42,074 nt of DNA from Heterotrichella gracilis. Lineage: Eukaryota; Sar; Xanthophyceae; Tribonematales; Xanthonemataceae. The stretch is taken from positions 1 through 42,074 of the forward strand of contig JAULBX010026942.1 in assembly GCA_032358255.1 (NCBI GenBank), given 5' to 3'. Shown here in pieces: positions 1,222 through 34,296 of this stretch. Position 1 is the stretch's first letter. Each line of letters begins with the position of its first letter. The translations under genes and the position numbers were made by a program. The notes under the pieces were generated by a model, which saw only the letters and a program-made list of their open reading frames with translations, had not been told where the DNA came from and did not search any database.

Positions 1222-4200
1222 ATGGCCCTGCGGAGGGGGGGGATGCAGCTGCTGCGTCAGCTGCCTTACCTCCCCAGTGGTCCCCACCTGTTTATCCCCC
1301 TGGCCCTGCGCTCAGCACAGCTCCTCCTGGGTGCACCCAGCCTGCAGCGCCTGTTCAGCGGCGCGCCTGGCACGGCTGTCGAGCCAGCAGCAGGTTCCCA
1401 GGTAAGGGTTTTGTCACGCCCTAGGGTTTAGATGGCATTGTGTGGTGCTTAAGGAGTGCAGTTGGCACCTTGAGGTGGGCAAGGAGCGAAAGAGGCACAT
1501 TGTTGCTTGCATGCACGGTGCCAAATACTCGTAGAAAGACAGAAAGAGTATTTGGCACCGAGAGACATGGAACGCACAAAGGCGGGATTAGGGGGGCCAC
1601 CGGCTCGTACCATTTTTGGTACATTTGAAATACCCTAGAACCCTGGGGTTTGCACAGGTACCTGCAGAGAAGCTTTACTCCAAGCTGCGCGCACCGCCCC
1701 TAGGGTCCCAGCACAAGATAACCCCGGAGGAGGCCGCTAGGGTTTTGGGCCATTTCCTGGGCGCACCCCAGCTGCGTCCCGGGGATGTGCTCGCCCTGAA
1801 TGCTGAGGAGATAGAAGGGGTGTTAAAGGCGACTACGCTACCGGGTAAGTCATGGGGGAGCGAGGTTAGGGCCTAGGCATTGGGATTATGCAAAGGGTTA
1901 ATATTGATCTTCAGTTGCCAGTGCATAGCTAAACCCTTGAGATATGAAATGCCACGTCCCAAGGCCACGTGCCGGCAGACATGTATCCCCTTTTTGCTGG
2001 TGTAAACCTACAATTCCCCACTCTTGTAGGCATCTGCGAAACCCTAAACCCTAAGATCCCCTTCTGCAGGCGCCAACAAAACCCTAGAGGAGGCCCTCTT
2101 TGCCCATGCAGATGGAGTGACCACCAGATTCTTTGGGAATGAGATATATTTCAGGGGGATTGTGGAGTTCAGCAACGTGTGCCAGGCGGACTGCGGCTAC
2201 TGCGGCATCAGAAAGCACCAGGCTGGGGTGCACAGGTGCGCTTGGCAATCCTAGGGTTTATTGTTACAGGATTAGGGTTTTTTGTGCATGTGCATGGCGG
2301 ACTGCGGCTACTGCGGCATCAGAAAGCACCAGGCTGGGGTGCACAGGTGTGGATATGGAACCTACCCAAACCCTTGTAGCAGTAGGGATTTGTAGGGTAG
2401 ATGTTTGGTATTGTATGTAGGGTGTTTGGTGCAAATGTCAGGCGGACTGCGGCTTCTGCGGCGTCAGGAATTTGGGTTGGAATTGGGTTTTTGAGGGTAA
2501 ATGTTGGGGTTCTATGTAGGGTTTTTTTTCGTGTCAGGCTGATTGCGGCTACTGCTTGGGTCCCAGGAGGGGGTGCAAACTCCCCCACCGCCACCTGTAC
2601 ACACCATCTTCTTTGACTAGGTGCTTCAAACACAAGTGCACAGCCCCCCCCACCCCCTCCACCCCCCTTCAGGTACACCATCCCCCCCGATGAGGTGGTG
2701 TGCACCGCTGAGTGGGCCTGGCGCAACCTTGGCACCCGCTTCCTGGACCCACACCCACCACCACCACCACCACCCAAACACACCCACAACTCCCATCTTC
2801 CCTTGCATTCCAGGTACACCATCCCCCCAGATGAGGTGGTCCGCACCGCTGAGTGGGCCTGGCGCAACGGCATGGGCACCCTCATGCTGCAGAGTGGGGA
2901 GCTGCCGGGTCCCCAGCGCCTGGACTACCTCACCCAGGTGGTGCGGCGGGTGAGGGGGAGGACGATAGCCATGGACCTGGAGGCGCAGGGGAGGGACCCC
3001 ACGGTAGGGTTTGTAGGTCTGGGGAAAGACCCTATTGGAGGGTTTGTCAAGGTCTGGTGCATGGCCATACATGTACATTTGGTAGGGTTCCTGGGCGGGG
3101 GTGAGGAGTGAAATGCAGCGCAATTGTGTGGCCATTCCACCCTAGTAAAAAACCCCAAAAAACACGGCAATTCCCCATTATCCTTCACCCAATTCCGGCC
3201 GCCCACCCCACCACCGACCGCAGGTCCCACCCCCCAACACCCACGGCCTGGGCCTGTGCGTAGCCCTCTCAGTGGGTGAGCTACCCCATGCAGACTACCA
3301 CGCACTGCGCCAGGCGGGGGCCGGACGGATACCTGCTCTGTATAGAGATACCAACCCAGTTCCATTCTATCCCATTAGGAACATCTAAAAGGCACCGCAT
3401 GCACATTGTAACCAATCACCCGAACCCCGCCGCAGGTCCTACCCCCCACCACCCACGGCTTAGGCCTGTGCGTGGCCCTGTCGGTGGGCGAGCTACCGAC
3501 TGCAGACTATCATGCACTGCGCGAGGCGGGTGCGGACCGCTACTTGCTGCGGGTAGAGACCACCAACCCTGAGCTCTTCAGCGCCATGCACCCACCGAAG
3601 CAGACCCTGGAGCAGAGGCTGCGGGCGCTGGCGGATCTGAAAGATGCGGGGTTCCAGGTGGGAGCAGGTGGTTTTAAGGGGTGTATTATCTTTTTCCAGG
3701 GTTTGGTAGGGTCTGGTTTTGGTGTGGGCCCCAAACGTGGGGTGTATTTGGCACCTTGCACCCTCTTAAGCAGGCCCTGCTGCCTCCTAGCGGTCAAGCA
3801 GAGTTGCATGCTGACCCATAGCCACCATTGCAAGCACACCCATTACCCCAGTGCTATGCTGACAACTGCAGCCCTTCACCACCCCTGTCGCATGCGGACG
3901 GCACACCACCACCGCCTTGGTGCGCGTACTGACAGCAACACCAAACGAACGCCAGCGAATGTTTGCATGCTGACCACACCATACCACCACCACCCACCGC
4001 ATCGCATGCTGGCAGCCCCCCACCCCCTACCCCCTACCCCCCACCCCTGCTGCAGGTTGGCACCGGCATCATGGTGGGCCTGCCTGGTCAAACCCTGGGT
4101 GACTTGGCAAAAGATGTGGTGTTCTTCAGGGAATACGGGGCAGACATGATAGGTGGGTGTGGGAATGAGGGGTGGTTGTGGGGGTGTTGAAGGAGGTAGG

Positions 4201-7200
4201 CATGATGGTGTTGTCTACTGTCTGCACTCGCGACCCTCCACCTGTCCTCCACCAGTCATTGAATCCCAATTCTTTCAAGAATAAGCTTGAAATGCCATGG
4301 AATATCAGCAGGATTACTCCTGATTCTGCACAGCCTAACTGCCCGCCCCTTCTTTTTCCCCCCAGGCATGGGCCCTTACATCACCGAACCAGGCACCCCA
4401 GTGGCCGCCATGTGGCAGCAGTCCTACGGCCACCTTGACAAGGCCCAGCACATGGCGGCCATGTTTGAGCTGACCACCCGCATGAATGCCCTAGTGAGGG
4501 TGACCATGGGGAATGTGAACATTGCGGCAACCACGGCGCTGCAGGTGGGGTGGGTGGGAGGAGGATGGGGTGGGGAGGAGTGGGACGTGTGGGATGTCTG
4601 ATGCTGGTGGTGTGAGCACTGCCTTATTCCTTTCCTCCTTGTCCAATTGCGGGTGGGTGGGTGTGCAACCGTCACCCCTACATACCGCTTCTCTTCCTCC
4701 ATCTTGTAATTACTTCCCCGTTTTGCCCTCACTCACCGCGCCAACATCCTCATTTCCAACCTCACAGCCACCTCAAACTCACCCTTTCACCACCCCCCCA
4801 ACCATCAAACCCCTTGGCCGCAGCACCTCCACTCCCGCATGCCCCACCTGAACACTACCTCCCCTGTTTCCCTCCCCCCCAGGCCATCAACCCCCTTGGC
4901 AGGGAGATCGCCCTCACCCGGGGGGCCAACATCCTCATGCCCATCCTCACACCCACCGCCTACCGGGTCAACTACCAGTTATATGAGGGGAAGCCATGCA
5001 TCACCGACACCGCGGAGGAGTGCAGAAAGTGCCTGAATGTGCGGGTGTCGATGGTGGGGAAGAAGCTGAGGACCGGGATTTGGGGGGATCCGCCGCATTT
5101 CAGGGATCCCCAGGAGGGGGTGAGGCCCTCAGGTGGGTGGTGGCGGGTGGTGGTGGTGGTGGTGTGTTTGGATGCAATGATGGGGATTGATGCTAGGGCT
5201 TCCATACAGTGTGATAGGTTTTGACCTTGTTATTGGGCTGGTGGTGGTTGCTGTAGGGCATTCGGAGGGTTTTGCTTGAATGGATCGTTGACATGCTTGC
5301 ATTTGTCATGGGCGGTACGTTTGGAACCCATGGCAAAAAATCCAATCTTCCAGGATGCCACTTGCGGATGCACTATTATGCTAAAAACCTGCAATTGCAC
5401 CCTTTGGCAGGGTCTCGGGGGTTCCACTCCACCCCCACCTTCCACCAACAACCCTCCGCCCAGCCCCAGCCAGGGTCCCCTAAGAATGTGCCGCATTTGG
5501 TCCCCGGGGCCTACACCCCCAGCACCCCCGTTGGCTCAGATGTGCAGCGCCTGAATGTGGGCATTTTTGGGTCCATGAATGCCGGCAAATCGACCCTCAT
5601 GAACCGCATCACCCGGAGTGAGACCTCCATTGTGGATCCCACCCCGGGGACCACAGCAGACACAAAGGTGGGGATGTGGAAAGCGGTTTGGTGTAATCCC
5701 TCAATTTCTGTGAAGGGGCTTCATACCAAGGGCGCATTTGGGTTTTTTTGATAGTTTTCTAGGACCCTGAGGGACCCCCCCCCTTGATGGGGTAAAAGCC
5801 TTTGCAGGTGATGCTCATGGCGCTGCATGACATTGGCCCAGTCAAGGCCACACAAAGCATTAGGCAAAAAACCTCATCCAAACCCCATAAAATCTACGGG
5901 TAAAAACACCTGTCTTAGGACCCTAATTGATAGTTAAAAATACCCTCTGCAGGTGGTGCTGATGGAGCTGCATGACATCGGCCCAGTCAAGCTTTTTGAC
6001 ACCGCCGGCATCAACGAGGGGGGCGCACTAGGCGAAAAGAAGCGCAGGAAGACCATCAGCGTGCTCAAGGAGTCCGATGTGGGTGTGATCGTGGTGGCTC
6101 CCCCTCCTGAATTCGTGGGTTACTCCCCTGCAGAGTTGGCTGAGGCGCTGCAATGGGAGCGCAAGCTGGTAAGGGCGGCTGAGAAGCATGGGGTCATCCC
6201 CGTTCTGGTGATGAATGTCAGGTGGGTTTTCCCCCTTTGCCTGTGCTGCCCTGCGTGGCAATTTTGCAATCCAAGGATGGGCTTAGTTCCACAGTGCCCT
6301 TGCATTATTTCACTGATGACTCGTGAGTCATGAGTCATGAATGATAAGGCGCTCATGAGATATTTTTTGCCACCGCACAGGGCGGGCGCATGGCGCATGG
6401 ACAGCCCCGAGCTGGCAAATTTGAAGCGGGAAATTTTCAGCATTTTGGATCCCGAGGCCAAATTTCTGGCTGCGCAATTGGACCTCAGCCATGACAGCGC
6501 GAGCACAGAGGTGGGCGGTTCTGCGGCAGGGTTTTGGGTCCTTCGATGGTGTTTTGCCACCATTGAAGCAGTTTTATGGAGGGCAACATCCAATCTGCCT
6601 TGATGACATCTTACTTGAGCCACACCTGATCTGATCACCACCTGATCATTGTAAGATATCCACATCGCATCACCATGAATCACACCTAGAAAACCAACAT
6701 GGCCATATCCAATCTGCATGATCGTCAGCCATGGCACACATCCATGCATGACCTTAGGTAATCTTTCAGCTCCTAGGGGAAAAGAAAACCTAGTCAATAC
6801 CCTATTGCAGGTTGCCACCCTACTCCAGCAGAGCCACTTGCGCAGCCAGGTGCGGGGGTTTACCAAATCCCTGCCCGAAAAGTACCTATCCCCGGGGGGC
6901 ATGGTGTTCCTCAACATCCCCATGGATGCGGAGACCCCGTCCATGCGCCTGCTGAGACCCCAGGTAAGGGTTTGGGGCATTGGGTTAGGGTTTATGGTTT
7001 CAGAGTATCCAATGGATGCGGCCATCCCATCTAAGCGCCTGCTAAGACCCTAGGTAAAGGGAAGACAAATGCAGCATGAGTTCCGGGTGATACCGAGCAT
7101 GTTTCAGGATTTCTTCCTATTCATTACAAGAGTTTTACGCCTCTAATAAATCCACACCCTTGCAGGCACTGATTCAAGAGGAGGCCATCCGCCACTATGC

Positions 7201-9328
7201 AACCACCGTGGCCTATCGGATGGATCTGGCAAGGTGGGGATTCCAAGATGTAGAAAAAAGTTCAGAAAATAAAATGAAAGAACACCAATGCCTGCGCAAC
7301 CTGGACTTACACAAGTGCATTAAAAGTGGGGTAGAATGAGTAGAAGTGCGTGAATGAGGTTTTTGTAGGGGGCTTGCACTTGGCAGCGCCTGGAAAAGGT
7401 GCGCAGAGCAACACCTGTGGCCACTATTGGTGAATACATCTTGCACGCGGCGCATGGCCAGATATGCACAGACCAGTAGCATTTTACTGCTAAAATTCTA
7501 CTGTGGATGCCATTCCTTTACCCCTCACCCCTTTGCCGCAGGGCGCGCAGCGCAGACCCTTCTGAGGTGGCCATAGAGAGGAGCAGGTTCGACCAGGCGC
7601 TGCAGGTGAGAACCCTAGGCTAGGGTGTTGGTGCCCGCCTGTGGAAACCCTTGCCCAGGGTGCTGGAGGTGCCGTGTATGAAACATGTTGCCAAGCACAT
7701 GGACTATTGGATTTGAGCCAAGCCCAACGTATTGCTTTGTTCAAAATGACAACACTGCTGCACGCATTGCTTGTGACGTTGAGTCATCTCAGGGAACTGG
7801 TTTAAGGAAATGGCTGTAGCTTACTTTCACCCTCAATAACCCTTTCAATTAAGGTCTTTGCATGGCGCTGCCATGGACATTCATTGCCTCTGCCTGGTGG
7901 CTGCCAGGGAAGTTCAATATGGCACATTGCGGTAACCAACACCCCTCCATAATTGTAGCACCCCCTTCCCTAAATTCACAATTTGCCGCATTTGCAGGTG
8001 CTCCTGAACCACCCTGGCCCAAAAATTATCGTGACCGACTCCCAGGCCGTGGACATCCTGCACCCCTGGACCCTTGACAAGGGTTCTGGGCAACCCTTGG
8101 TGCCCTTCACCACCTTCTCCATCGCCATGATCCACAGGCAGAGCGGGGGGAAGCTGCCCCTGTTTGTCAACGGATTGGATGCATTCGATAGGCTGATGGA
8201 GGTAGGGGAGGGAAATGGAAAAGGGAGATGGCAGTGTCACGATGTTATTCTGCTTGGTGAAAGGGTAATGTGCCTCAAGTGGTCCAGGAGGGAGCTGGTA
8301 GGACGTTTTCGAAGTGTGTTTTGGGACAAATTGGGACTGTAGCTGTTGTAAAGTTCAGGGATATTTTACCCTAACCCTGATCTCAAACCCTACCAACGTC
8401 CTTTACAATGGCTCCCCCTCCCCTTGCAGGATACCCCTGTGCTGGTCACTGAGGCCTGCAATCACAACCGCGTCACCCAGCTGCCCAACCCTACTGCAAA
8501 CCCTAACACAATGGCCACCTCCTACCAAAACCCTACGCGATTTATCACAGATATTTCCCCCTCCTGCAGGGGGACCGCGTGCTGATTGCCAAGGTCTGCA
8601 ACCACAACCGCATCACCCAGCTGCGCACCCTTACACAAAACCCAAACAAACCCTGCTGAAACCCTGCAGGGAGACCGCGTGCTGATCGCCGAGGCCTGCA
8701 ACCACAACCGCATCACCCAGCTGTGTAACGACATCGGGATGGTGCAGCTGCCCAATAAGATCCATGGGTCCGCTGGGAAGGGGGTGGTAATAGAGCACGC
8801 GTTTGGGAGGGAGTTCCCGGATCTGGAGGGGGAGGATGGGGGTCTGGGGAGGTAAGGGCTAAGCTCCTTGTACATTCTGTGTTTTGAAGCTCAGGAGTTT
8901 GACTTCGTGAGGGCTTGACGAGCAACTAGGCATACAAGAAATCTTCATGTCGACTGATCCATGCTGATGCATGCAGTGGATGGCCAAGACTCTCATCATT
9001 GGTGCATACTGCCCTCAGCTCCTCCCACAGCTCATGGCAGTGCCTACCAAACCCCCACAAATTTATCGCTTTCATCATCATGGTATTCCATGACATCACT
9101 CCCATTTTGCCGCTTCAACACCTTGACGTCCCCGCCCTCCCCCCACCCATCAGGTTCCAGCTGGTCATCCACTGCGGCGGGTGCATGATCGACCCGCAGA
9201 AGGTGCGCGCCCGCCTGTCTGACATACAGGAGGCGGGGGTGCCGGTGACCAACTATGGGCTGCTGCTGGCGCATGTGACCTCACCGGGGGCGCTGAGGAG
9301 GGCGGTGGAGGTGTATGAGGGGGAGTGA
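1222..9328 (+). CDS. HYDEF: HydEF, fused [FeFe]-hydrogenase maturase
   Basis: Fusion of radical-SAM HydE with GTPase/scaffold HydF; known members build the H-cluster of [FeFe]-hydrogenase, in algae in the plastid. Exons: 1222-1401, 1658-1844, 2070-2235, 2814-3003, 3436-3657, 4056-4152, 4366-4544, 4883-5132, 5411-5667, 5953-6221, 6381-6510, 6811-6963, 7166-7233, 7542-7605, 7998-8201, 8670-8851, 9154-9328. All phases join, giving about 990 aa. Residues 1-60 are Arg/Leu-rich like a transit peptide. HydE shows CX3CX2C (C160, C164, C167) and an auxiliary CX7CX2C (C446, C454, C457). A Pro/Gln-rich linker leads to the HydF P-loop GSMNAGKS (544-551), DTAG at 592 and C-terminal cluster ligands CNH (882-884) and HCGGC (939-943). 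No clear NKxD G4 motif is visible. Many introns carry decayed copies of adjacent exon ends. The fusion itself is known from Chlamydomonas. Exon 12 start may be off by one base. Confidence 0.96.
1516..1560. repeat. Perfect 15-bp hairpin in HydEF intron 1
   Basis: Arms 1516-1530 (CGGTGCCAAATACTC) and 1546-1560 (GAGTATTTGGCACCG) are exact reverse complements around a 15-base loop. The TTTGGCACC core recurs at 3743-3759 and in the foldback element at 27383-27542, so it may be a remnant of one element family. Confidence 0.75.
2291..2556 (+). repeat. Three echoes of the HydE cluster-motif exon end
   Basis: The exon 3 tail encoding the CX3CX2C motif (about 2180-2235) is copied three times in the next intron. 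Copy 2291-2345 differs at two bases and keeps the following GT. Copy 2436-2468 reads CQADCGFCGVR. Copy 2531-2556 reads CQADCGYC and differs from the exon mainly by synonymous changes (GCG to GCT, GAC to GAT). All are direct repeats. The ORF-keeping exon is the first copy, because its phase joins exon 4. Confidence 0.9.
2673..2740 (+). repeat. Echo of HydEF exon 4 head
   Basis: About 65 bases repeat the start of exon 4 (2814 onward), including an upstream AG acceptor. The copy encodes YTIPPDEVVCTAEWAWRN against YTIPPDEVVRTAEWAWRN in the exon, then diverges. It lies in the preceding intron. Confidence 0.9.
3224..3357 (+). repeat. Echo of HydEF exon 5 head
   Basis: About 130 bases repeat the first part of exon 5 (3436 onward) after a CGCAG acceptor. 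The copy stays open and encodes GLGLCVALSVGELPHADYH, then shows a compensated one-base insertion and deletion. It is the longest near-intact echo in this gene and could be mistaken for an alternative exon. Confidence 0.9.
5808..5850 (+). repeat. Echo of HydEF exon 10 head
   Basis: After TTTGCAG, about 42 bases repeat the exon 10 start (5953 onward). The copy reads VMLMALHDIGPVK against VVLMELHDIGPVK and then decays before the G3 motif. Confidence 0.85.
7003..7060 (+). repeat. Echo of HydEF exon 12 tail
   Basis: The exon 12 end (about 6913-6970, encoding NIPMDAETPSMRLLRPQ and its GTAAGG donor) is repeated just downstream. The copy reads PMDAAIPSKRLLRP and ends in an in-frame TAG followed by GTAAAGG. 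Confidence 0.85.
8430..8629 (+). repeat. Two echoes of HydF cluster-ligand exon head
   Basis: The start of exon 16 (8670-8735), encoding GDRVLIAEACNHNRITQL, is preceded by two direct copies. Copy 8430-8489 reads DTPVLVTEACNHNRVTQL. Copy 8570-8629 reads GDRVLIAKVCNHNRITQL. Each sits behind a CTTGCAG or CCTGCAG acceptor. Only the third continues open to the next donor. Confidence 0.92.
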
Positions 9329-9342
9329 TGGTGTGGCTGGCT

Positions 9343-9560
9343 TTAGATTGGGGCTGAGGAGGGCGGTGGAGGTTTATGAGGGGGGGCTGCGGGGGGAGTG
9401 GGGTTGGATTAATGCTGGTAGTTGGCATGGCATTTGGTGCAAGTCAGTGGCATTGTGGCATGGTGCGCGGGTGCCAATGACCAACTAAAGGGTTGCTGGC
9501 GCATGTGAACTCGCCAAGGGGGCTGAGGAGGGGGGTGGAGGTGTGTGAGGAGGGGTGAGA
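9343..9560 (+). repeat. Two echoes of HydEF 3' coding end
   Basis: The last coding stretch (about 9226-9328) is repeated past the stop codon. A short copy lies at 9343-9390. A longer one at 9462-9560 matches the segment encoding GVPVTNYGLLLAHVTSPGAL with small indels and a stop. They lie in the 3' UTR or flank, not in an intron. Confidence 0.88.
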
Positions 9561-11623
9561 GGGCAGTTTTGGGTGACGTTGTACTGGAGCTGGGAATTGG
9601 CATGCCATTTGGCTCACGGAAAAGCAACGCAGTAGTATGTGCACTCCATCTTTGAAGCTAGATTAGTATGACTGGGTATGCCCCATCCCAGGTCAAGAGC
9701 CACGGCTAGTCTGGCACTGCCCTTACTGTGACAGATGGTGGCCAACCAGCCGTAGGGACAGCAACAGACTTGAAGTAACCCGTAAGTGTACGGAGCTTGT
9801 GCTTCACTTGTTTTTTGAAAATTGCGCATTTTTTGTGCTGTTGCAAGTGAGGAGAATGATCGCAGGCAGGCTTTTTACCTTGGCTTTTTTCCCATGTGTG
9901 TCTCATTATTGGTAAACCTAGTGTTGAATATTGAGGGCACTGTAGCTGCTGCCAATTAGCATAGGGCTGCTCTTGAAGAGTTGTTTTCTTTCTTCTTCCG
10001 TTGCAGCGTGTGTGTAAAGCAAAGGCCAGAGCCTCTGCAGTGTGTACACCACCGATGGGAGTTACATGTACGGTATAGAACTTCTTTATGGCCTTCAAGC
10101 ATGTGTGCCACACATGACATGGCCATATTATATACCACACCATTAGTATGTATGATGCAGTGGGTGTGTGTTGTGGGCATTTTTTTCCGTTCTTTCTTCA
10201 TGTAGTAGACAGGCCAATGACTCGAGATGGCCAACAAATTTCTAAAAGAGGCATGATCATGTCCATCACCAGTGAGACTCCGTGGTGATGGTATGGCATA
10301 GTATGGTATTACCGTCAAATCAACGCAACTTGCGTTGGAACCGTTCCATTGTAGTACGCATACTATACATTGTCAAGCCTGCACCTTAGTTTTCTAAAAC
10401 TTTATACTACGGCCTCAGGCAAATAAAATTGATCACGACTGTTTTGCAACTCAATCATCGACACGCCTCCATAGCATGGTTGTCCCAGGTTCTCCCCAGT
10501 AACAGTTCATAATGCATTATACACATAACCCCGGGGGCCAGTCTCCTGCACATGCTATCCATGCTTTTCTTACTGTTACCACTGCAACCTACATTGTCAC
10601 CCATACTTAGAGCAACTGCACGCCTTGAGGACGCATGGCATCTGCAAGGTTTGATGTGCCACAGTTGAACCCGAAGCCTGAATGATCATATATCAGATTG
10701 AATCCTGCAGGCGAAATGCAGACGTGTAGGCCATGCACAGACCCTAACCCCAATATCCAGATCGTCAACCCAGGTCGGTAGCCTGGGACCCTAAACCCAG
10801 GTCAGTGGCAGCAAGGCACATGCCTAAGGAAAAGGAGATGGACGCCAACAGCATAACTAAAGCGCCATAGCCCCCAAGTCAAGTGTCCCATAAACCTACA
10901 CAATGGCAATATTGCGAGTAGCCAACGCCCACCTCTGCAGTGCACCGCCACAAGCACCAATGTGGCAGAATTAGCCCTTCGCCACCCCGGGGCCTTGACA
11001 CCCATACGGCGATATCGCTGCACACAGGGTGAATGTTGCACTGCTGATGCCCTGGAACTCAGCCGCTGCCAAACATGTACCCCAGAAGTCCCAAGACGGG
11101 GAAGAAAATGAAGCCCAGGATAAATTTTGTTACCGCCCCCAGGATAGTTAGGAATATAAGAAGTGCAAGCAAGTGTCAGAAAAGCTCTCCTTGCACGCAT
11201 GATGGTGGTGCCCTAGCAGGAGCAACCACAAACACAATCAGTGTTGATTTAGGACACTCCTTGGGGACCATCACAGTACAACTCGTGAGTCACCAACACA
11301 AATCACTCTAATAATCACAGCCTTGGCTTGCATACTATGATGAGACGCTTGATCCCACATATGTGCATCAATGCATGGTGGAACAAAATAACAGGTACAA
11401 AGGGTACCAATGGATGATTTTTCAGCAACATCCAATTAATAGGCAGTCATCATGAGGTAGAGGCCTCCGGGTGCAAATGTAATCAAAATAGAGGGAAAAA
11501 ACTATACTAAGAAGAAGGCTTCCAGGGATGCCAGTTTAATGAACGTGAATGATAACGCTTCCAATGATGCAAGTTGACCCTCTAGTCTACGGGTCTTTTG
11601 CCTATAGGCTAACTAGCACTTAC
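9561..11623. other. Intergenic region, no supported gene
   Basis: No gene is supported. A TGTAA word at 10013-10017 could serve HydEF polyadenylation, 685 bases past its stop. On the minus strand, 11178-11059 holds a strikingly hydrophobic frame (ending FILGFIFFPVLGLLGYMFGSG then stop) but it follows an in-frame TGA with no AG acceptor between, so I do not call it. Confidence 0.4.
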
Positions 11624-12301: not shown

Positions 12302-12362
12302 CTGCAAACTAGCCCAGGGTGGTATCACAAACACAGTGATGGTATGGCAAGCACAGTCACAC

Positions 12363-12414: not shown

Positions 12415-13710
12415 TTATCCCCAGTCAGCAACCACTGACTGGGGTAGGTGGGGCAGCAGCTGGAGCTGCTGCCTGTCTGTCATGCAACTGTTGTTGAGCT
12501 CCAATGACTGGAGAGGGAGGGCGAGCAGGCGGGTCCAATGGGCATCCAACTCACCCGGCGGCACCTGCAAGGATATAATAAATGAAGAAGGAACAAAATA
12601 AAGCAAGACCAAGAAGTATAGAAGATAAAATTGGAATGCAGAAATGAAGTAACAATGTAATAGGAAATTAAACATGCTAACAAAATGATGACGCGGCCTC
12701 TGAACTGCCGTGTTGGGTTTAAGCAAATGGAGGTAACAAAGCAGAGAGCATGACCCTCCTGTCCTCCACCATACCTGCACGGATAGGGTGAGGTGTTGCA
12801 GGCCCTTGGGGCACCAGCGCCCTTCCACCAGCAGCGCCAGGCAGCTGCGGGCCATGGTCAAGGTGAGCGAGGTGAGTGCGGCCAAGGGGAGCAAATCAAG
12901 CGCCAGCTGCATGCCATGCAACCCCAGCCCCAGGCTTGTAATGTTGGGAAGCTGATGCAGCGACAGCGTGTCGCTGTGTCGGGCCAGGCGGGAAGCATCG
13001 TGCGCCTGGTAATCCTTTCCGCCCGCGCACAGCGTTGCAGCGGTGACAGAGGGCAGCGGGGGCAGCGGGAAGACCGAAAACCGGTTGGTGGAGTAGTCAA
13101 AGAGCTCCAGCGCCAGGTAAGTCAGGCGGGTGAGGTGGGAGAGGTGGCGGGTCATTGACCCTAGGGTTTCCGAGGGCACCTCGCAATCCCCCGCCTCAAA
13201 CCTGCTGGAAAACGTGGCGTGCAGATCCAGATGCTCCACACTGGGCAGGCGCCCTATGACTGTGAAAACCTCCACCAGCTTGGCCAGATCCTCATCATAC
13301 CCCGCCCCACCCTGGAAATTGAGCTTCAGGCTCTGCATCTGAACAGGGTCCAAGGCAGCCAATAGGTCCAAACAGGGCTGGGGGTAGTTGATGTCTCTCA
13401 GGTGCCGGACGTCCAACTTCCTGGTGCGCGCCACACGAGGGATCAGATCGCTGTGCTCGATGTCGTAGTGGCGAGTGAACTCCACATCCTCCCAGAGCAG
13501 GCCTTGGGTGCAGAGCAGCCTGTGCCAGCGCTTGCACACCCAGGTTATCCAGAGGCGGTCCTCGAACGGGATTCTGAGGAAGATGGGGTTGAGGAGTGCG
13601 TCTGGTAGGCTTTCCATTTGCACTGGCTCCCGGAAGGTGGTGGGAGGAGGTGGTTGCAGCTGGCGGGCGGTGGTTTGGGTGCCACAGGCTGCACCTAGCA
13701 TGGTAGGCAC
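12415..13710 (-). CDS. F-box / leucine-rich repeat protein
   Basis: The protein starts with a Gln/Pro-rich stretch, then an F-box near residues 32-66 (MESLPDALLNPIF, then WVCKRWHRLL), then irregular leucine-rich units (SLKLNFQGG, HLDLHATFS, LTYLALELF, LTSLTLTMAR). F-box proteins usually recruit substrates to SCF ubiquitin ligases through Skp1. Two exons are likely: 13710-12775 and 12564-12415, giving 361 aa. The intron between is 210 bases, a multiple of three, and stop-free, so retention would give 431 aa with a hydrophobic insert. The last residues (PQSVVADWG) come from a perfect palindrome, so the C-terminus may be truncated relative to an ancestor. A later start at the Met before ESLPDALL is possible. 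Family is clear; substrate is unknown. Confidence 0.72.
   Translation of the reverse strand: MPTMLGAACGTQTTARQLQPPPPTTFREPVQMESLPDALLNPIFLRIPFEDRLWITWVCKRWHRLLCTQGLLWEDVEFTRHYDIEHSDLIPRVARTRKLDVRHLRDINYPQPCLDLLAALDPVQMQSLKLNFQGGAGYDEDLAKLVEVFTVIGRLPSVEHLDLHATFSSRFEAGDCEVPSETLGSMTRHLSHLTRLTYLALELFDYSTNRFSVFPLPPLPSVTAATLCAGGKDYQAHDASRLARHSDTLSLHQLPNITSLGLGLHGMQLALDLLPLAALTSLTLTMARSCLALLVEGRWCPKGLQHLTLSVQVWWRTGGSCSLLCYLHLLKPNTAVQRPRHHFVSMFNFLLHCYFISAFQFYLLYFLVLLYFVPSSFIISLQVPPGELDAHWTRLLALPLQSLELNNSCMTDRQQLQLLPHLPQSVVADWG
12419..12444. repeat. 10-bp palindrome at the F-box stop codon
   Basis: CCCCAGTCAG and CTGACTGGGG are exact reverse complements around a six-base loop. The palindrome encodes the last residues before the stop codon (12415-12417). 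Confidence 0.8.
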
Positions 13711-13724
13711 TGCTGTCGCTGTGG

Positions 13725-13870
13725 CTGGTTATTTTGGTGTTGGTGTGGCGTTGCTGTTGCTGTTGGTGTTGGTGTTGGTGCTTTGGTAGGTATGGCTGTG
13801 GCTGTGGTTGTGGCTGTTGGTGTGGCTGTGGACTGTGGCTGTGGCTGTGGAAATGGCAATGGCTGGTGAA
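13725..13870. repeat. GGCTGT / GTTGGT low-complexity tract
   Basis: A run of GGCTGT, GTTGGT and related hexamers lies immediately upstream of the F-box start codon. On the minus strand it would read as Gln/Pro/His-rich peptide, so it could be 5' UTR or an N-terminal extension. Confidence 0.8.
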
Positions 13871-15839: not shown

Positions 15840-22152
<6,313 letters not shown>

Positions 22153-24193: not shown

Positions 24194-27100
24194 ATGCAGG
24201 GCTCCACCAACCAGCCGGGGGGGCCTGACCCAACACCAGGTAAGCACTATCGGTCAGGAGGAGCGCCTGACCTCAGCCCTCCTGGTGCTCCTAGTTTGGA
24301 GGATTAGGAATAGAAGGCCATGTCTGTAAATTACTTGGGTTTGCAATGCGGAGAGATAAAAGGAACGCCAACCAATGAGCGCTGCATAGCAGCGCTGCTG
24401 TTACCCAATGCCTGTGTGTTGCCACCTCTGGTGGAGGTAGGCAAAATCCTTCCCCCGCCTCTCAACCTGGGAGTTGCATGGTCTGGCGGATTGGGGCGGG
24501 CTTTTCATTAATATTTTGTTACTCTATACGCCCCCTTCCGCTCCAGGCCATGCCTCTGCCACGCACTTGTTGATTTATTCAATTATCCCAGGGGGACTAG
24601 AATAGGATTAGGATAGGTCCTATTCTAGTCCCCCAGGTTATCCGCCCATGTTCTATATCCATAGTTGAATGTGGTTCCTCCCCTTGCCCCGCAGGCCCCT
24701 CCGCCCCCACCGATGCCGCCTTCAAGCACCTGCTCATGGGGCCAGGCAAGGGGAACATGAACCTAAGCGGGGTGAGTGAGCCACAGGCCAAACCATGCTA
24801 TATCCTTTGATGTTGAACGCCAGTGCAGACCTGGGTGCTGCGCGCGACTGGCTGGTGCCAGTTGTACACGGCAGTCTGGCTGCACTGCTGGAACGCATAG
24901 ACACCTCTTCCCAAACCCTGCCTGGGTTTCTGAGCCTGTTAGGCTCTGTCCCACCCCCGTTCCACTCAACATCCAGACCCTAAACTAGGGTTCTGAACTT
25001 CCTGTCTGCCCGCTTGCGCCCAGGTGCGGGCGCGTGCGGAGGAGCTCCGAAAGAGCCTGGACCAAATCATTTTCGGGCTGCACCACAACGCGCACCGGGT
25101 GCACTGGTGAGGCCTGAAAACCCTTGGCTAGGGTTGCGATAATGCATTGGCGAGGCCTGAAACCTAGGCTAGGGTATATGGTCATGCACTAGTGAGGCCC
25201 ATAGGCCTATAGTATATGCTACTGCAGACTCAAAGTTGCGGTTACGGTCACCCCTGGGATTGATTTGCACCACAATGCACACATTGCGCACAGGGAGCAC
25301 TGCGAGGCCTTACTGAAGATGTTCCTCCCAACCCTAAGGGTTTCCCTCCACACTCTCGTAGGGACGACATCCTTGACCGCTTTGCAGTGCTGAATGTGCA
25401 GTACCACCACCTGCGGGAGCAGCTCAGGCCGCTGCTCAAGCACTATGTGGTGCACCCCAAGGTAGGGTTTTTGCCGGGCTACCCGACGCCCTAAACCCTT
25501 CACCCTAAAAACAGCTGAGGCCGCTGCTCAAGCACAACGTGGTGTATTTTAAGGTAGGGGTTTTACCCAGACGCAGGGAGCCCAAAATTAGGATTGTCGT
25601 CTCACCCACGGCACAGTAGGGCAGGGATACTCCCTGAGTGCACAGCAGCAGGTTGCGCCAAGCTATAATAATCCAATTGTTGAACTTGCACAAACACAGT
25701 TTCTCCCTCCGTGCAGAGCGTGACCCAGCACAACGCCCCCGTGCCGCCCATCATGAATCTACCATTTGGACGATCTTAGGCCACCTCCAACCCCCTTGCA
25801 ATGCGTGAATCGGCTCACACACAGACTGCTGCCCATCCTTGTGGCACCATTTGTTCTTCATTTTGGAAGATTTTAGGCCACCCTTTCCCCCCCCTTGCAG
25901 AGCGTGAACCAGCACAACGCCCCCCTGCTCCCCATCATGATGGCCACCCGCCTGCTGCCAGACATGGAGGCGGCGGAGGGGGAGCTGGCGGAGCAGCACA
26001 GGCAGAGGGTGGGGGAGGGTGGGGCAGGCGATGTGGCGGCGCAGTACGAGGCGCTGCTCAGTGAGGTGAGGGGTTGGGTGGAAATGAGGTGGGCGTGGGG
26101 GGAGGGAAGGACACAGATTGGGGAAGTGGGCGTGCAGTCTGATTTGGTGTGGTGTGGTGTGTGGGTGACGTGGCTGCGCAGTACGAGGCGCTGCTCAGTG
26201 AGGTGAGGGGTGGGTGGAGGGGACTTTGGTGTACTGCATGGGGTTCAGGGTTCAGGATGTGGTGTAGTGCATGGGGTTTAGGGTTAAGGATTTGGTATAC
26301 TGCATGGGGCTGCTCATTGAGCTGTGGGAAGGGGGCAATGCGTGGCAGCAAGGGTGTGGGATGTGAAGTACCAGCTGGCGCCATCGTCACGCTTTTTGCC
26401 CCCCAAAAGCCCTCCCATATTCCGGTTTCAACCTGTGTACCTCCACCCACCTCCCTTGGCACCCCTCCCTTTCCAGACCCTAAACCCTAAACCTCGCCAA
26501 GTTGACGCAGGTGCAGTGGGCCCTGAGGAGAGTGAGATGCGGGTCACCAGCTAGGCGCCCCAAGGATCTCCCTCCAACCTTGACCCCCTTCCTAAACCCT
26601 AAACTCTAAACATTAAATCTCTCCAGGTTGACGCCTTCAATGCGGTGGTTGACCACCTGTCGGTGCACACACCCGGGGTGAGTGCGGGCCCGCTGGATGC
26701 GCGCAGCCCCATGCGGCGGGAGATGGCGGCTGCGGCAAAGGCGGCGGCGCAGGCGGCCACAGAGGCGGTGGGGAAAGCAAAGGTGGGTGGCAGGCACGTT
26801 GCATTTGCTCATCTAAAAAGAAAGAAGAATCTTGCAAATGAGTACTCACCCGCTCCACCATGTTGGGTGGCCTGTGCATGTTACTGCCAACACTCTATCC
26901 TACTCGGTAGCATGGTATTCATCCGCTTTTCCATTGCACACACGCGGCGCCCAATGCAAGCAGCACAGTATCGAATTAGTTTGGTGGAAATTAAATTGGA
27001 TAAATGCTTGCAGGCTGCCAGCGCCCCTATCAGGCAGTCATGACTCCCAAATAGGCAAACATAAGTTTTTTTTTAACTCTTCTTAAGTCATTTAAAATCA

Positions 27101-27382: not shown

Positions 27383-27542
27383 ACTACGTAGCAAACGTTG
27401 TATGCAAGGTACCAAACACCACTGGCAACCTACAAATACAAAGAATCCCCATCTATTACATGCATTTAATAAATAGGGATTTCTTCTAAATGTAGCTTGC
27501 AAGTGGTGTTTGGCACCTTGCATATATCGTTTGCTACGTAGT
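27383..27542. mobile_element. MITE-like foldback element
   Basis: Two 52-base arms (27383-27434 and 27491-27542) are inverted copies with about five mismatches, beginning CTACGTAGCAAACG and meeting at a 56-base centre. No coding capacity is present. The termini are palindromic (CTACGTAG). A target duplication is not clear. It lies 170 bases past the MED8 stop. Confidence 0.7.
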
Positions 27543-28940: not shown

Positions 28941-29258
28941 CTAGTGAGCCAGATGCTCCAGCGCAGCAACGCGCGCCTCGAGTGATGCGAGCCTCAGGGC
29001 CGCAGACACATCCCCCTCCCCTGCACTATTCCACATGTCCCCTGGAGTGTCTGGTGTCCCTGGTCCAGGGCTTGCAATAGCTGAACCCATCGCAAACCGC
29101 TGACCAGCACGCCATGCTGTGCCTTTGGGCAGGGGCGGACCATGAAAGGACCTGAAGGATCCCTGGGGCCTACAGCCACGCAAGGCAATAGCCCTGGTCT
29201 GTGGTGGTACGGCACTTGCCGGCTTCGTGCCAGCGCTCCTTGAGAGAGTAGAATGCAT
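28941..29258 (-). CDS. Candidate small protein with C-terminal coiled coil
   Basis: A single open frame of 105 codons. The N-terminus is rich in Arg, Ser, Pro and lacks acids (ending RSFHGPPLPKG), as in an organellar presequence. The last 25 residues (DVSAALRLASLEARVAALEH and four more) form a leucine/alanine heptad typical of a short coiled coil. A decayed copy of part of the frame lies downstream, as seen with real exons in this window, which supports a genuine gene. The family is not recognised, and an intron may be hidden near 29118. Confidence 0.42.
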   Translation of the reverse strand: MHSTLSRSAGTKPASAVPPQTRAIALRGCRPQGSFRSFHGPPLPKGTAWRAGQRFAMGSAIASPGPGTPDTPGDMWNSAGEGDVSAALRLASLEARVAALEHLAH

Positions 29259-29751
29259 GCCTGCTGCGTGTCAGTGGGATTGCACAGGTCTCAACGGCTG
29301 AGTTGGACCCCCCTGTTCTGCTCTTTGGTCTGGTCAAGGTCACAGTTGGTTTGCTCAGTCGGCCTAGGGAAGAGTGTATTAAGCTACTCACTCCACCCCC
29401 CTAGGGCCCCGGCCCAGGACCTGGTCACAGTCAGCCAGAAGCCACGTCTTAGCTCATCTCATGACCAGCTGCGCGTGTTGGTACGGAAACGACAGTTTTA
29501 CAGCACAGAAGGGGTGCTAATGGTGCTGGTGGGTCAGCGTTGTTGGGACTATCCAGCAGTAGGTGATAACCAAGGTTTCTGCATATGAGATGCAATATAA
29601 CGTATCTAACTTGAAGTCCATCCTTACTCTAATCTCAGCATAGTAGCTAGAAAAAACCCGCCAACGTGTACTCTTCCAAAGCAATACAAAAACCCATGTA
29701 CAGTGCGTTCGTCCTTGTTGCACGGCCAGGCTTCTCCAACACCGTTGCGGT

Positions 29752-29768
29752 TATGCATGCATGCATGT
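29752..29768. promoter_or_regulatory. TGCATGCA array upstream of citrate synthase
   Basis: TATGCATGCATGCATGTGC lies about 645 bases upstream of the citrate synthase start. Confidence 0.25.
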
Positions 29769-30051
29769 GCTTGGAAGCCCTAAACAAAACCCTAAACCCT
29801 ATCCTAGGCTAACCCTGAAGACTTTGAAGTCCCCAGGATCGCGTTGCACTTGTCTTGTGCGGTGCACGTCGCCAAGGAGGCACAAACAACGCTGTGCTGC
29901 GTTCATCTTGTTCTAGACTTTGTGAGATTGCCCAGCATGAACTATCGGACTGAGTCTCTATGCTGTGACCTATGCCGGTGTATCCATCAGCCATTTGAAG
30001 CACCCGCATGCAGGATCGATCCGGCAATCCTCACATGCAACATCAGAGGGC

Positions 30052-30066
30052 TTGCATGCATGCATT
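30052..30066. promoter_or_regulatory. Second TGCATGCA array upstream of citrate synthase
   Basis: TTGCATGCATGCATTGG lies about 345 bases upstream of the start codon, a spacing similar to that at HydEF. Confidence 0.25.
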
Positions 30067-30409
30067 GGCGTTCGCCAGTGGCTGGATGCACCCAGATTGG
30101 GTGATTTGGCAGCTGGTATTTCCTCCCCGCACACAGATGTTGCAAAATGATGTCGTCCCCTGCCCACGTGCAGCAGAGACCATTTCGGAACACCTCAGCA
30201 ACGCCGACACGAGAGACAAAACAGCCTTGGGCAAACCAAGCTGCACTTGTAAAGCCACTGCATCCAAGCAACATTGGTCTCAACTTGTACCTGTCAACAG
30301 AGCGCAATGGTGGCGTGGCCTTGAACTAATCCGAGTGTCGACACCTGCCATCAAGGTTTGCCCGTTCGCCTTCAATTACTCAGTGTCCACTGGGTCTGCA
30401 CAACCCACG

Positions 30410-33400
30410 ATGAACTCCTCGGCCAGTGCCCGATTGGCTGCTTTGCAACGTCACCTGGGCGGGGTGAATGTCTCTGAGCAGAGTCAGCTTTCTGCCAGCC
30501 CCACCGCCGCATCGCACGATGCACCCAGGCCTGCCCCCGGCGGTGGGCCAGGCACTCTCACCGTGGTGGACAACCGCACCGGCAAAAAGTACGAGCTGGA
30601 GGTCAACGAACATGGCACCGTGAAGGCCAGTGACTTCAAGAAGATCACAGCTGGCGGGGACAACGTGGGCATCAAGCTCTTCGACCCTGGGTAGGTGCTG
30701 CATGGCGTGACTCACCACATGCATTGCCGTAGTGAAAGCACAGGGCAGCTGAAAAGCCACCTGATTACGCCATTTTAATGTGAAGATGCTGAGTTACAAA
30801 ACCAAAAACATTTTGGATGCTGCTGGCAATACATGCATGTGTGGCATCACCCCATCTGGCCAGATGTTACGTCAGTGGGCCTGTGTACCTCTGACAAGCA
30901 ATTGAGACGTGCTCTGGCCGCCCAGGTACCTCAACACCGCACCCTGCAAGTCCACCATCTCGTACATTGACGGGGATGCGGGCATACTGAGGTACCGCGG
31001 CTACCCCATAGAGGAGCTGGCTGAGAAGTCCAGCTTCCTGGAGGTAGGGGTGGAAGGGGACTGCTCAGTGGCCACATTGAGGCTGGATTGCTCATTGACC
31101 CAATTTCAGGCTGGTAATGGGGTTGCTCTGTGGACACTCTGCGTGGTATATATCGGGCACTCAATACCTGCATGAATATGTGGGGGAGTGGTGTTCTTCT
31201 GATACTCACTGCCTGCACAGTAGTGGGTGGCAATGCCTCTGCACCCCTGGGGATGCCTCGTGGTGAATCGCGTGCTGCGCACCCTGTTGTCATGGCCTTC
31301 CAATTCCCAAGGTGCATTGGGACCTACCTGCGATAGCATCCTCATAACTCTGCACCCAAGGCTCCCATAATTCCACACCCTGACAAGGCGAGGCACGCAC
31401 GGGGCCCTGCTCCACGTCCCCACATCCCTCCCAACCTCCCCCTCCTCCCACCCCCCTAGGTGGCCTACCTGGTGGTGTACGGCGCCCTCCCCTCCGCCTC
31501 TGAGCTCGCCGCCTTTGAGGAGGCAGTGATGCGCCACAGCGCGGTGCCCACCGCAGTGGAAAACGCAGTGGCTGCCCTGCCCCACGACGCGCACCCCATG
31601 GGGGTGCTCCTGGTGGCGCTCAACGCGCTGTCCACCCTGCACCCCGAGCAGAACCCTGCGCTTGCTGGGCAGAATGTGTACAACAGCAAGGAGGTCCAGG
31701 ACAAGCAGATCGTGCGGCTCATAGGTGGGTGCAGGAGTGTTTTGCTTGACTGCTAATTGCAAAATGCATTAGGATGCGTTGCCACGATGGAGGCTCTGTG
31801 GGTTATAAACTGCCGGAAATGAAATGGTGTCGTGGGCAATGCACTGTGCATGCCGCATCTGGAGCAGAACCCCGCGCTCGCGGGGCAGCACGTGTACAGC
31901 AGCAAAGAGGTGCAGGACAAGCAGATCGTGAGGTTTTTAGGTGGGTGCAGCAATGTAGAGAAATGCACGAGGATACGTCGCCATGCATGGAAGGCTCTGC
32001 GTGAACGTTCATGTACAGGGACTGGCATGGCGGGGTTCATGAGGGGATCCATGGTGCAGCCTCGCGTACCCAGGAAATGGAAAACTCTATGTCGGATGGG
32101 TGTTTGGATGCATGGCAGCTTTGGCAGAGGTCCATCTCAGCCAATGCTGCTTTGCATCAAGACACCCATGTAACACAAACTTTTCAGTTCATGGGTACTT
32201 GAGGCTTCGACCTGCGCATGCATACCGTCCTGCATGGTCAACGGTGCATAGATGGCATGAGCATGGCAGAGGAACACTTTGCGGCCTGCACACCCACTCA
32301 CTGACTCACAGGCAAATTCCCACCTATCCACCCACACAATACTGACGTACTCCTTATTATATATAAAGATATAATAAGGCTAATCTGGCTGTATTGCTGG
32401 AATGTATGTGACTCACTCACCAACTAATATTCTGTTTTACCTGCATCCAGGCAAGATCCCCGCCCTAGCCGCCCTGGCCTACCACCGCGCCTCCGGCCGC
32501 CGCCCTGCGCCCCCCAACCAGCGCATGTCCTACGCCGAGAGCTTCCTATTCATGCTTGACGCGGGGGCCAAACCCAACTACCGCCCCAACCCCCGCCTGG
32601 CGCGCGCGGTGGACATCCTGTTCCTGCTGCATGCTGAGCATGAGATGAACTGCTCCACGGCGGCTGCGCGCCACCTGGCGTCCAGTGGGGTGGATGTGTA
32701 CACAGGTGGGTGTGGGTGTGTGTGGTGGGGGTGAAAAGGAAGGAAGGATAATCTACTGGTGTGCTGTGTGTGGGGGGATTCACAGCTTGAGAGTCATGTG
32801 ATATTACAAAGAACATGATTTTGTAGGTGCAGGGGTGCAAACCTAATCCCAAACCTGAATTCTTATTCACATCGTCAATGCGATTTAGTTTCATCTCTGT
32901 TTGATGTTTTTTAACATTTTTAAACAAAGAAGAACAGTTCATGCTTCCTGCGGACTGACCAACCACATGCCTGTGTGCAGCCGTGAGCGGCGCGGTGGGT
33001 GCGCTGTACGGCCCACTACACGGGGGCGCCAACGAGGCGGTGCTGCGCATGCTAGCGCGCATTGGGCACAAGGACAACGTGCCCGAGTTTGTGCAGCGGG
33101 TGAAGGAGCGCAAGGAGATCATGTTTGGGTTTGGGCACAGGTGAGTGGGGGCCTGGGTGGGTAGGGGTGGGGATGGGTGCATGGTGCTGACAGGTGCATG
33201 AATGCGGGTTCGTGGACAACTTTACAACTGTCATCAGCACATCTGTATGTTATGCATATCTAATCCCTTTTCGTGCTGCCTTTCTCGAGGTCATCCTGGC
33301 GCAGCGTGCAAGCACAACGACCCCCGCGCATGCATTTTTTTGAAGTGTACTCTTCTCTCTATCAGGGTGTACAAGAACTACGACCCGCGCGCAAAAATCA

Positions 33401-34296
33401 TCCGCCAGGTTGCGGAGGAGGTTTTCTCGATCACTGGCAGGGACCCGCTCATTGAGGTGGCGGTGGAGCTGGAGGCATGCGCGCGCCAGGATGAGTACTT
33501 TGTCAAGAGGAACCTGTACCCAAACGTGGACTTCTACTCAGGTGGGTGGGGGGTGGGGCACGCGAGTGCACCATGGGGTTGGGATGTGGTGGGTGCGTGG
33601 GATAGCATGTCTGCTGCCGCATGCAATAGGGTTTCAGCAACAGCCCACTGATGCCAATCCCATTTGCCACACACTCTTCAATCTAAGTGATTATGTTGCA
33701 CCACACACTAATGTTTTATTTGAATCTGATTAAGTCTTATGCACTACTAATTTTCCTTACGCACCCCCGCAGGCCTTGTGTACCGCGCACTGGGCTTCCC
33801 CCCGCAGTTCTTCACAGTCCTGTTTGCTGTACCGAGGGTGACCGGCTACCTGGCGCACTGGCGGGAGCAGCTGAGCGACCCCGACACCAAGATCATGCGG
33901 CCGCAGGAGGATTACACGGTGAGGGGGCTAGGGTTTGGAGGGTGTAGTCTTTTGCGGATTGGAGGGCTTGAAGTTGGGAGGCGACTGGTGCCGTGCGACT
34001 GCAGGCCGAACCCATCGCCCGTTCTTTAGGTACATGCATTCCATTAGATCCGCCGGAACAGGTAGTCACCCTTGCACCGATTGCGCCCCGCTCCACCTGT
34101 CTCCATTACCAACCCACCTACCCACACCCACCCACACCCATACACTCCACTCGCGCAGGGCGAGTGGCTGCGCCACTACCAGCCGCTGTCTGAGCGACGC
34201 GGCGCACCCCCCGGGCCAGACACCGCCGCCACCATGGGCCCAGTGCCCCCCTCCAATGCCTACCGCAGGCGCATTGCGGGCACCAACTGGCAGTAG
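30410..34296 (+). CDS. Peroxisomal-type citrate synthase
   Basis: Condenses acetyl-CoA with oxaloacetate to citrate; peroxisomal plant forms serve the glyoxylate cycle and fatty-acid breakdown. Exons: 30410-30690, 30926-31043, 31460-31724, 32451-32705, 32981-33140, 33366-33541, 33773-33918, 34159-34296. All phases join, giving 512 aa, the usual length of plant peroxisomal forms. Residues 8-16 (RLAALQRHL) match the PTS2 pattern R-L-X5-H-L near the N-terminus, as in plant CSY2/CSY3. Catalytic signatures are visible: LHAEHEMN (near 281-288), [18 protein letters not shown] and the Asp in NVDFYSG. The C-terminus (TNWQ) is not a PTS1. The start is chosen because it places PTS2 at the N-terminus. 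Intron 3 holds a long echo of exon 3. Residues look intact, so an active enzyme is expected. Confidence 0.96.
31847..32005 (+). repeat. Echo of citrate synthase exon 3 tail plus intron
   Basis: This segment repeats 31650-31805: the exon 3 end ([20 protein letters not shown]), the GTGGGTGC donor, and about 80 bases of intron (blocks AGGATACGTCGCCA and GGAAGGCTCTGCGTG). The copy reads [20 protein letters not shown] and stays open across its donor. It shows directly that one unit crossed the exon-intron junction. Confidence 0.95.
32352..32379. repeat. AT-rich 11-bp hairpin in citrate synthase intron 3
   Basis: CCTTATTATAT and ATATAATAAGG are exact reverse complements around a six-base loop. Confidence 0.8.

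Follow-up and report, generated by a model that had tools for sequence, protein, structure and literature searches.

Exon-edge echoes and telomere-repeat filler at intron ends of the xanthophycean alga Heterotrichella gracilis

The 42,074-nucleotide stretch of Heterotrichella gracilis DNA analysed here as a whole and referred to as the window (GenBank assembly GCA_032358255.1, contig JAULBX010026942.1, forward strand; contig C444 among the 903 contigs of the 68.5 Mb genome) carries genes for HydEF, FtsH, MED8 and citrate synthase, whose introns contain short, decayed copies of the ends of neighbouring exons, in the following termed echoes. Exon models for these four genes, comprising 38 exons, were built from reading frames and splice sites (Table 1). 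The initial annotation of the stretch used the subtype label FtsH11, while the Pfam domains support FtsH. The best named matches of the HydEF protein stem from Micractinium and Parachlorella with 59-60% identity, followed at lower values by other green algae, a similarity that places the source of the DNA among the green algae, probably the trebouxiophytes.

Comparison of the window with itself (blastn, E <= 1e-3) yielded 33 rows of local direct repeats, some of them redundant, with spacings of 90-448, and five rows of local inverted repeats, all of which are self-palindromes. At a stricter cut-off, 28 direct rows were obtained, in full agreement with the 25-30 decayed direct copies noticed initially. 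A copy that had been reported for a small open reading frame was recovered as well, in the form of a blastn pair at 28.6-29.1 kb for which there is no gene model (77% identity, spacing 448). Each exon was then compared in both orientations with every intron of its own gene or, where applicable, with the 350 nt outside the first or last modelled exon. Direct copies of exon ends occurred in 16 of the 76 cells formed by an exon and an adjacent intron, inverted copies in none of these 76. Non-adjacent introns contained neither direct (0/440) nor inverted copies (0/440; 0/880 together), and 204 comparisons with dinucleotide-shuffled adjacent introns gave no match. An equal frequency of copies in the 'wrong' intron or in inverted orientation, named beforehand as evidence against the pattern, is therefore not what the four genes exhibit, and the observation of exon echoes is confirmed.

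The matches in preceding introns all correspond to the 5' part of the exon (7/7) and those in following introns or flanks to its 3' part (9/9), exactly as had been proposed, and this applies to FtsH on the minus strand as well as to HydEF, MED8 and citrate synthase on the plus strand. In 11 of the 16 cases the match extends exactly to the exon end, in the other five it ends 7-27 nt short of it. Echoes are borne by 12 of the 34 internal introns, and two further ones are located outside the last modelled exon, i.e., past the HydEF stop codon and after MED8 exon 3. The positional rule itself comes close to a tautology, since no other arrangement can result when a direct duplication of short range spans a splice junction and the gene stays intact. 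What is informative about the echoes is mostly their range, orientation and number, while the rule is mostly geometry.

Table 1. Gene models, exon echoes and further repeats in the window. Positions refer to the 42,074-nt stretch; exon limits are given in brackets.
Feature	Position	Copy	Strand	Identity	Remarks
HydEF	1222-9328		+		17 exons; reading frames and splice sites; Pfam: radical SAM, GTPase and HydF domains
FtsH	21828-15840		-		12 exons; start perhaps incomplete; Pfam: AAA and Peptidase_M41
MED8	25024-26065		+		3 exons; Pfam supported
Citrate synthase	from 30410		+		6 exons, at least one more at 33766-33906; Pfam supported
HydEF exon 3 (2070-2235), 3' end with donor	2178-2238	2289-2349	+	97%	following intron
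HydEF exon 3, further echo		2436-2470	+	89% to exon	
HydEF intron after exon 3	2385-2459	2485-2555	+	75%	repeat within the intron
HydEF exon 3, filler	2239-2288		+		between the two youngest copies; TAGGGTTTA 2252-2260, TTAGGGTTT 2272-2280
HydEF exon 4 (2814-3003), 5' end	2811-2868	2670-2727	+	95%	preceding intron; copy with acceptor; filler 2728-2810 non-telomeric, P = 0.38
HydEF exon 5 (3436-3657), 5' end	3417-3569	3204-3357	+	81%	
HydEF exon 8 (4883-5132), part	4910-4957	4725-4772	+	81%	match starts 27 nt inside exon
HydEF exon 10 (5953-6221), 5' end	5944-5991	5799-5846	+	90%	telomeric score of filler P = 0.35
HydEF exon 12 (6811-6963), 3' end	6919-6970	7009-7060	+	81%	telomeric run 6985-6994 in filler
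HydEF exon 16 (8670-8851), 5' end	8663-8723	8563-8623, 8422-8483	+	93%, 84%	filler 8624-8662 faintly CCCTAAA-like, telomeric P = 0.055
HydEF last exon (9154-9328), 3' end	region 9233-9612	9465-9558	+	82%	past stop
HydEF downstream	9350-9437	9519-9612	+	76%	mutual repeats
FtsH exon 2 (21243-21023), 5' end with acceptor	21214-21279	21392-21458	-	75% (blastn)	decayed; outside the 16 matches, exon-by-intron test did not report it
FtsH exon 3 (20726-20486), 5' end	20662-20777	20810-20922	-	74%	preceding intron
FtsH exon 6 (19298-19100), 3' end	19051-19167	18893-19008	-	81%	
FtsH exon 7 (18729-18525), 3' end	18497-18608	18341-18452, 18216-18267	-	91%, 81%	
FtsH exon 10 (17124-16933), 3' end	16940-17052	16729-16841, 16591-16653	-	nearer copy 86%	77% over longer gapped match
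MED8 exon 2 (25362-25461), 3' end	25420-25475	25512-25567	+	82%	telomeric run 25489-25499 in filler
MED8 exon 3 (25901-26065), 5' end	25884-25940	25700-25756	+	88%	
MED8 exon 3, 3' end	26027-26082	26164-26218	+	93%	filler non-telomeric, P = 1.0
Citrate synthase exon 3 (31460-31724), 3' end	31621-31740	31837-31956	+	81%	
Minisatellite	26227-26309				33-nt unit, 2.5 units
Long palindromes	27383-27542, 32058-32206, 39222-39479			73-84% self-match	
46-nt element	32379-32424	41998-42043	inverted	85%	9.6 kb apart
F-box-like gene	12415-13728		-		

The outer copies, that is those lying in the intron, decay neutrally. In 18 exon/copy alignments from the window, mismatches at the three codon positions numbered 42, 38 and 81, with about 390 sites each, and the codon differences comprised 75 amino-acid-changing (three of them stops) and 62 silent ones; MED8 exon 1 was left out because its frame is unclear. 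All six gaps are out of frame, two of them in one alignment nearly cancelling each other. This codon-position pattern points to an outer copy that drifts and an exon that is free to change only at third positions. The echoes are not alternative or mutually exclusive exons, as the outer copy bears no signs of purifying selection (42/38/81, frame-shifting gaps).

In order to survey the genome beyond the window, 25 stretches with a total of 236,775 bases (0.35% of the genome) were sampled, two of them chosen for citrate synthase and the others by contig number. Local direct repeats are present in 20 of the 25, so that the high local duplication rate deduced from the window holds for most of the sample. 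Window and sample together (278,849 bases) contain 156 direct pairs within 3 kb vs. 17 inverted ones; 13 of the latter are self-palindromes (hairpins), leaving four inverted pairs of other structure. The direct pairs are spaced by 60-260 in 128 cases and are 70-95% identical in 138, which makes an assembly artefact, the concern voiced at the outset, unlikely for most of them by an argument that does not involve resequencing. One pair group (L014, 9210-9582) spans a gap of 100 N and may be such an artefact. In the histogram, spacings of about 80-120 and 190-220 look frequent, which brings the idea of nucleosome-sized spacing to mind. Echo density is uneven, because five of the 25 sampled stretches hold no direct repeats and neither do the citrate synthase loci on contigs C36 and C84 (L010 and L012). 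The citrate synthase genes on C36, C84 and C444 consist of several exons, unlike the intronless frames of 406 and 449 amino acids at C893:7298-8350 and C552:82816-83952, which possibly derive from a contaminant. Another sampled stretch, L033 (C552:10001-20000), features a tandem array with a 243-nt period, about 70% identity and a length of more than 1.3 kb. It was kept in the counts of repeat pairs and telomeric clusters and dropped from those of telomeric coverage, polarity, coding side, filler and exon/intron share.

Coding sequence was recognised by a model trained on the window genes, which reached an area under the receiver operating characteristic curve of about 0.99 on held-out window genes; the window rows of the tests on splice junctions, splice-likeness and telomere orientation are consequently not independent of it. 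Outside the window there are 77 spaced pairs after removal of redundancy, of which 75 were scored for coding sequence on their outer sides. In 40 of these 75 one outer side, and no more than one, is coding, compared with 25.6% for random placement (P about 4e-7), an enrichment that may in part be a visibility bias, since similarity to a constrained exon remains visible for longer than similarity to neutral DNA. Coding sequence on both outer sides was found in 0/75 pairs, where about two (3%) would be expected by chance (P = 0.18); with a difference short of significance, the initially proposed loss of units inside exons is no more than possible.

The young pairs mostly consist of copy, spacer and copy. 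Among the 30 pairs with at least 90% identity, 27 are separated by at least 15 nt of unmatched sequence, which in two cases includes an N gap, and three abut or overlap; the median spacer amounts to 69 nt and the median copy to 61 nt. The clearest case is found at positions 4060-4236 of L024, where a 45-nt tract occurs in three copies separated by 21-nt CCCTAAA-type stretches. The initial annotation had interpreted such arrangements as short tandem duplications, tolerated where they straddle a splice junction or the stop. The high rate and the neutral decay of the edge copies stand, whereas the tandem product does not agree with the unmatched, often telomere-repeat-containing spacers. A simple tandem duplication, produced by slippage or by fill-in and with the spacer representing a decayed part of the duplicated intron, would account for those pairs that abut or overlap (21 of 132 non-redundant pairs of all ages) and for the resemblance of 12 of 41 young fillers to the outer flank. 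On the other hand, a duplicated intron part should still align in pairs of at least 90% identity, and telomere repeat is far more abundant in the spacers than in the outer flanks. Tandem slippage is thus ruled out for most of the young pairs, and as a general explanation we consider plain tandem duplication improbable.

A splice junction could be placed in 56 of 97 pairs, and four in which it lay outside the copy were dropped before medians were taken. In the young events (25 from window and sample), the exon part of the duplicated tract has a median length of 57 nt and the intron part one of 14 nt, in line with the earlier remark that copies carry the splice site and intron flank. Retrocopying of spliced RNA is disfavoured, because young copies include some intron; a separate search for read-through into the next exon was not part of this comparison. 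Beyond the match, the pyrimidine content at acceptors is 0.59 next to the outer and 0.53 next to the inner copy vs. 0.49 in the intron interior (14 events; mean of window acceptors 0.68), and the G content at donors 0.45, 0.41 and 0.28, respectively (17 events). Outer copies accordingly look no less splice-site-like than inner ones, a small difference which may mean that the intron present before the event remained attached to the outer copy.

The sequence found between the copies is frequently the alga's own telomere repeat. TTTAGGG can be assigned this role because seven contigs begin with 35-mer arrays of it, read on the minus strand; a telomerase RNA-binding domain is also encoded in the genome. 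Exact matches to the 14-mer TTTAGGGTTTAGGG number 5,629 genome-wide, overlaps and telomeres included, vs. five for the reversed motif, and AAACCCTA reaches a density of 864 per Mb with both strands counted. Runs of the repeat with at least 11 nt occur 135 times in the 279 kb of window and sample compared with 0-1 times in five shuffles. The longest perfect run in the sample has 28 nt. A perfect run of 35 nt is located inside contig C187 (19937-19971 of 81,296 bases), and longer arrays at C173:89224-89497, C460:40603-40756 and C660:23585-23724 may be contig ends.

Telomeric sequence accounts for 5.3% of the bases between copies and for 3.6% of those within them, while outer flanks reach 1.1% and all remaining sequence 0.65%; telomeric 9-mers occur in 38 of 109 spacers vs. 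8.1 +- 2.7 for random segments. Viewed from the repeat, direct repeats enclose 43 of the 123 telomeric clusters sampled, in comparison to 37 of 615 random and 36 of 615 random non-coding places, and inverted repeats enclose 0/123. Out of 43 young fillers, 41 were evaluated (two hold N; some share a copy, so that they are not independent), and 21 of these are telomeric at P <= 0.02. In the window, the filler between HydEF exon 3 and its nearest echo has a telomeric score of P = 0.010 and does not resemble the outer flanks (P = 0.73). Telomeric clusters avoid coding sequence: with the run itself excluded, both 60-nt flanks are coding in two of 123 cases vs. 66 of 615 for random places, and in the window models 13 telomeric 9-mer runs lie in 11,501 intron bases vs. 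one in 6,769 exon bases.

The repeat is also oriented with respect to the gene. In the sense direction, donor events contain only the G-rich form in eight, only the C-rich form in two and neither in 16 cases, while the corresponding numbers for acceptor events are one, ten and 18, with both forms in one further case (Fisher P = 0.002; P = 0.005 with 9-mers). Similarly, the first halves of the window introns contain 11 G-rich and six C-rich occurrences, the second halves none and seven. This dependence on the splice side would be expected if the motifs were functional intron signals, i.e., branch-point sequences, G-rich splicing aids or telo boxes, and their proximity to duplications were secondary. 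We regard this possibility as improbable, too: perfect runs extend to 28 nt in the sample and to 35 nt inside C187, the enrichment lies between the copies and not in the outer flanks, and the same orientation is expected from selection on inserted filler or from telomerase polarity. Since selection for spliceable filler would lead to this pattern, the orientation is not decisive.

Taken together, the echoes are probably scars of error-prone local break repair, in which some tens of nucleotides are duplicated and a filler, often telomeric, is inserted. Such an event would start with a local DNA break whose ends are staggered over tens of nucleotides and would both be filled in; end joining would then close the break through an insert of new DNA, so that filler comes to lie between two copies. 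This insert, in many cases made up of a few telomere-repeat units, would be new rather than old intron and could originate from telomerase or from captured telomeric DNA. Where the duplicated tract includes a splice junction, splicing would go on using the copy that is still continuous with the exon body, while the outer copy would become intronic and decay neutrally. The counts given above establish the spaced arrangement of young pairs, their direct orientation and short range, the telomeric enrichment between copies, the neutrality of outer copies and the occurrence throughout most of the sample, whereas the break, its staggered ends, their fill-in and joining, and the newness and source of the filler are inferences. 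Direct orientation, short range and filler fit a fill-in and joining of staggered breaks, and the pattern suggests that sloppy break repair keeps rewriting the intron ends of genes.

A number of observations weigh against this interpretation. Extension of 3' ends in place predicts TTTAGGG beside the left and CCCTAAA beside the right copy, and such a polarity is absent (G-rich form 7 left and 12 right, C-rich form 12 left and 15 right). In genic events, telomeric runs lie nearer the functional copy in 15 and nearer the outer copy in 16 cases. The copies are themselves rich in telomere repeat, with the 3.6% of their bases given above probably reflecting earlier inserts that were recopied. Almost half of the young fillers (20/41) are not significantly telomeric, and the 12 that resemble the outer flank may in part be older tandem events. 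What is taken for filler might also be old intron. Finally, exon makes up most of the tract in 22 of 25 young events (P = 0.0002) and in 20 of 27 older ones, although random placement of staggered breaks predicts equal exon and intron shares.

This exon-heavy composition is what would be seen if copying had begun at the intron edge, as in repair of the copying type, where synthesis-dependent strand annealing (SDSA) or template switching would close a break in the intron by copying from near the splice junction into the exon, with filler added at rejoining and a spacer that is largely original intron. Repair-mediated duplications in human likewise duplicate exons and splice sites and show filler and microhomology (PMC2671141). 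The almost complete lack of inverted copies and the narrow spacing of the algal pairs, compared with human donors up to 5 kb away, argue against repair of this kind, and so does the hint of an original intron retained beside the outer copy, even though the underlying difference is small. On balance we judge copying-type repair to be rather unlikely.

Copy-filler-copy also looks like a target-site duplication around an insert, so that a mobile element whose target-site duplications are very long had to be considered, as had introner-like elements. The one non-telomeric filler tested has only itself as a match in the 68.5 Mb, one echo block likewise matches nothing elsewhere in the genome, including as an empty site of a second haplotype, and the 41 young fillers are of different lengths and, the telomere repeat aside, of different sequence. 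An origin from such elements is highly improbable.

If error-prone repair of staggered breaks is the source of the echoes, a further and more tentative step would be to assume that the telomere-maintenance machinery, i.e., telomerase and telomeric fill-in, acts as a routine end-processing activity at ordinary chromosome breaks. We put this forward as a possibility that may well prove wrong: the repeat would have been left thousands of times, introns would have been lengthened and splice signals supplied, with CCCTAAA serving as pyrimidine stretch or branch point before acceptors and TTTAGGG following donors. Should telomere repeats indeed be written at breaks at such a rate, the alga would be a natural system for studying how telomerase and fill-in are kept off breaks elsewhere, and it would also be suited for asking how introns grow and gain splice signals. 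In any such study the exon edge offers a slowly changing reference against which the neutral copy can be dated, and one genome may record very many repair events.

Some further features of the window deserve mention. The three long palindromes are its most prominent local inverted repeats and resemble remnants of hairpin-type mobile elements. The minisatellite downstream of MED8 exon 3 contains GGGTTCAGGGTT/GGGTTTAGGGTT-like sequence, and the inverted 46-nt element is perhaps a dispersed repeat. For the F-box-like gene, the self-comparison of the window lists no direct repeats inside.

Telomere repeats at breaks, repair-mediated duplications and plant telo boxes are known one by one. A literature search that left most subscription journals outside its reach found no genome combining these features at the density reported here, which amounts to one telomeric run of at least 11 nt per about 2 kb sampled and to exon echoes in 12 of 34 introns of the four genes. 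Partially tandem duplications in rice, attributed to patch-mediated breaks, consist of direct copies with a spacer like the algal pairs. Intron gain through tandem genomic duplication is a known model; since both outer sides are coding in 0/75 pairs, the algal data document no new intron. What the alga shares with the intron-gain models discussed in connection with break repair is local duplication or repair at introns (PMC3488318; PMC8226300).

Small tandem duplications arise from breaks whose ends are staggered by tens of nucleotides, via end joining and fill-in by CST-Pol alpha-primase, the complex that also performs fill-in at telomeres; they are described as tandem, whereas the algal copies are separated by filler (PMC8355091). 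For the human genome, 824 repair-mediated duplications with donors up to 5 kb away are given in the sections seen, and these resemble the algal pairs in closely linked copies, putative filler and the involvement of exons and splice sites; unlike the algal copies, which are direct and mostly within 260 nt, they are not linked there to telomeric filler (PMC2671141). Telo boxes in plants are scattered telomere units as well. AAACCCTA occurs 155 times per Mb in the Arabidopsis genome and 81 times in that of rice, is most frequent in 5' untranslated regions and is proposed to result from telomerase acting on free 3' ends (PMC3022908). In the alga, direct repeats are found around the units and the density is 864 per Mb with both strands counted, a convention that may differ for the plants.

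Close counterparts are also the interstitial telomeric sequences of mammals. Telomere repeats were inserted there during repair of double-strand breaks, and the direct duplications that accompany a minority of the insertions are attributed to breaks with staggered ends; 83 human, 244 mouse and 250 rat loci were counted by the search criteria of the study concerned (PMC2246262; PMC7215372). Flanking duplications were recorded in horse (3 of 66 loci), rodents (6 of 130) and primates (4 of 25) (PMC2246262; PMC7215372). H. gracilis resembles this situation in that the host telomere repeat lies inside chromosomes and is in part flanked by direct repeats. It differs in that as little as 279 kb contains 135 runs of at least 11 nt and that direct repeats flank 43 of the 123 clusters, densities that are only loosely comparable with the mammalian ones as the criteria differ.

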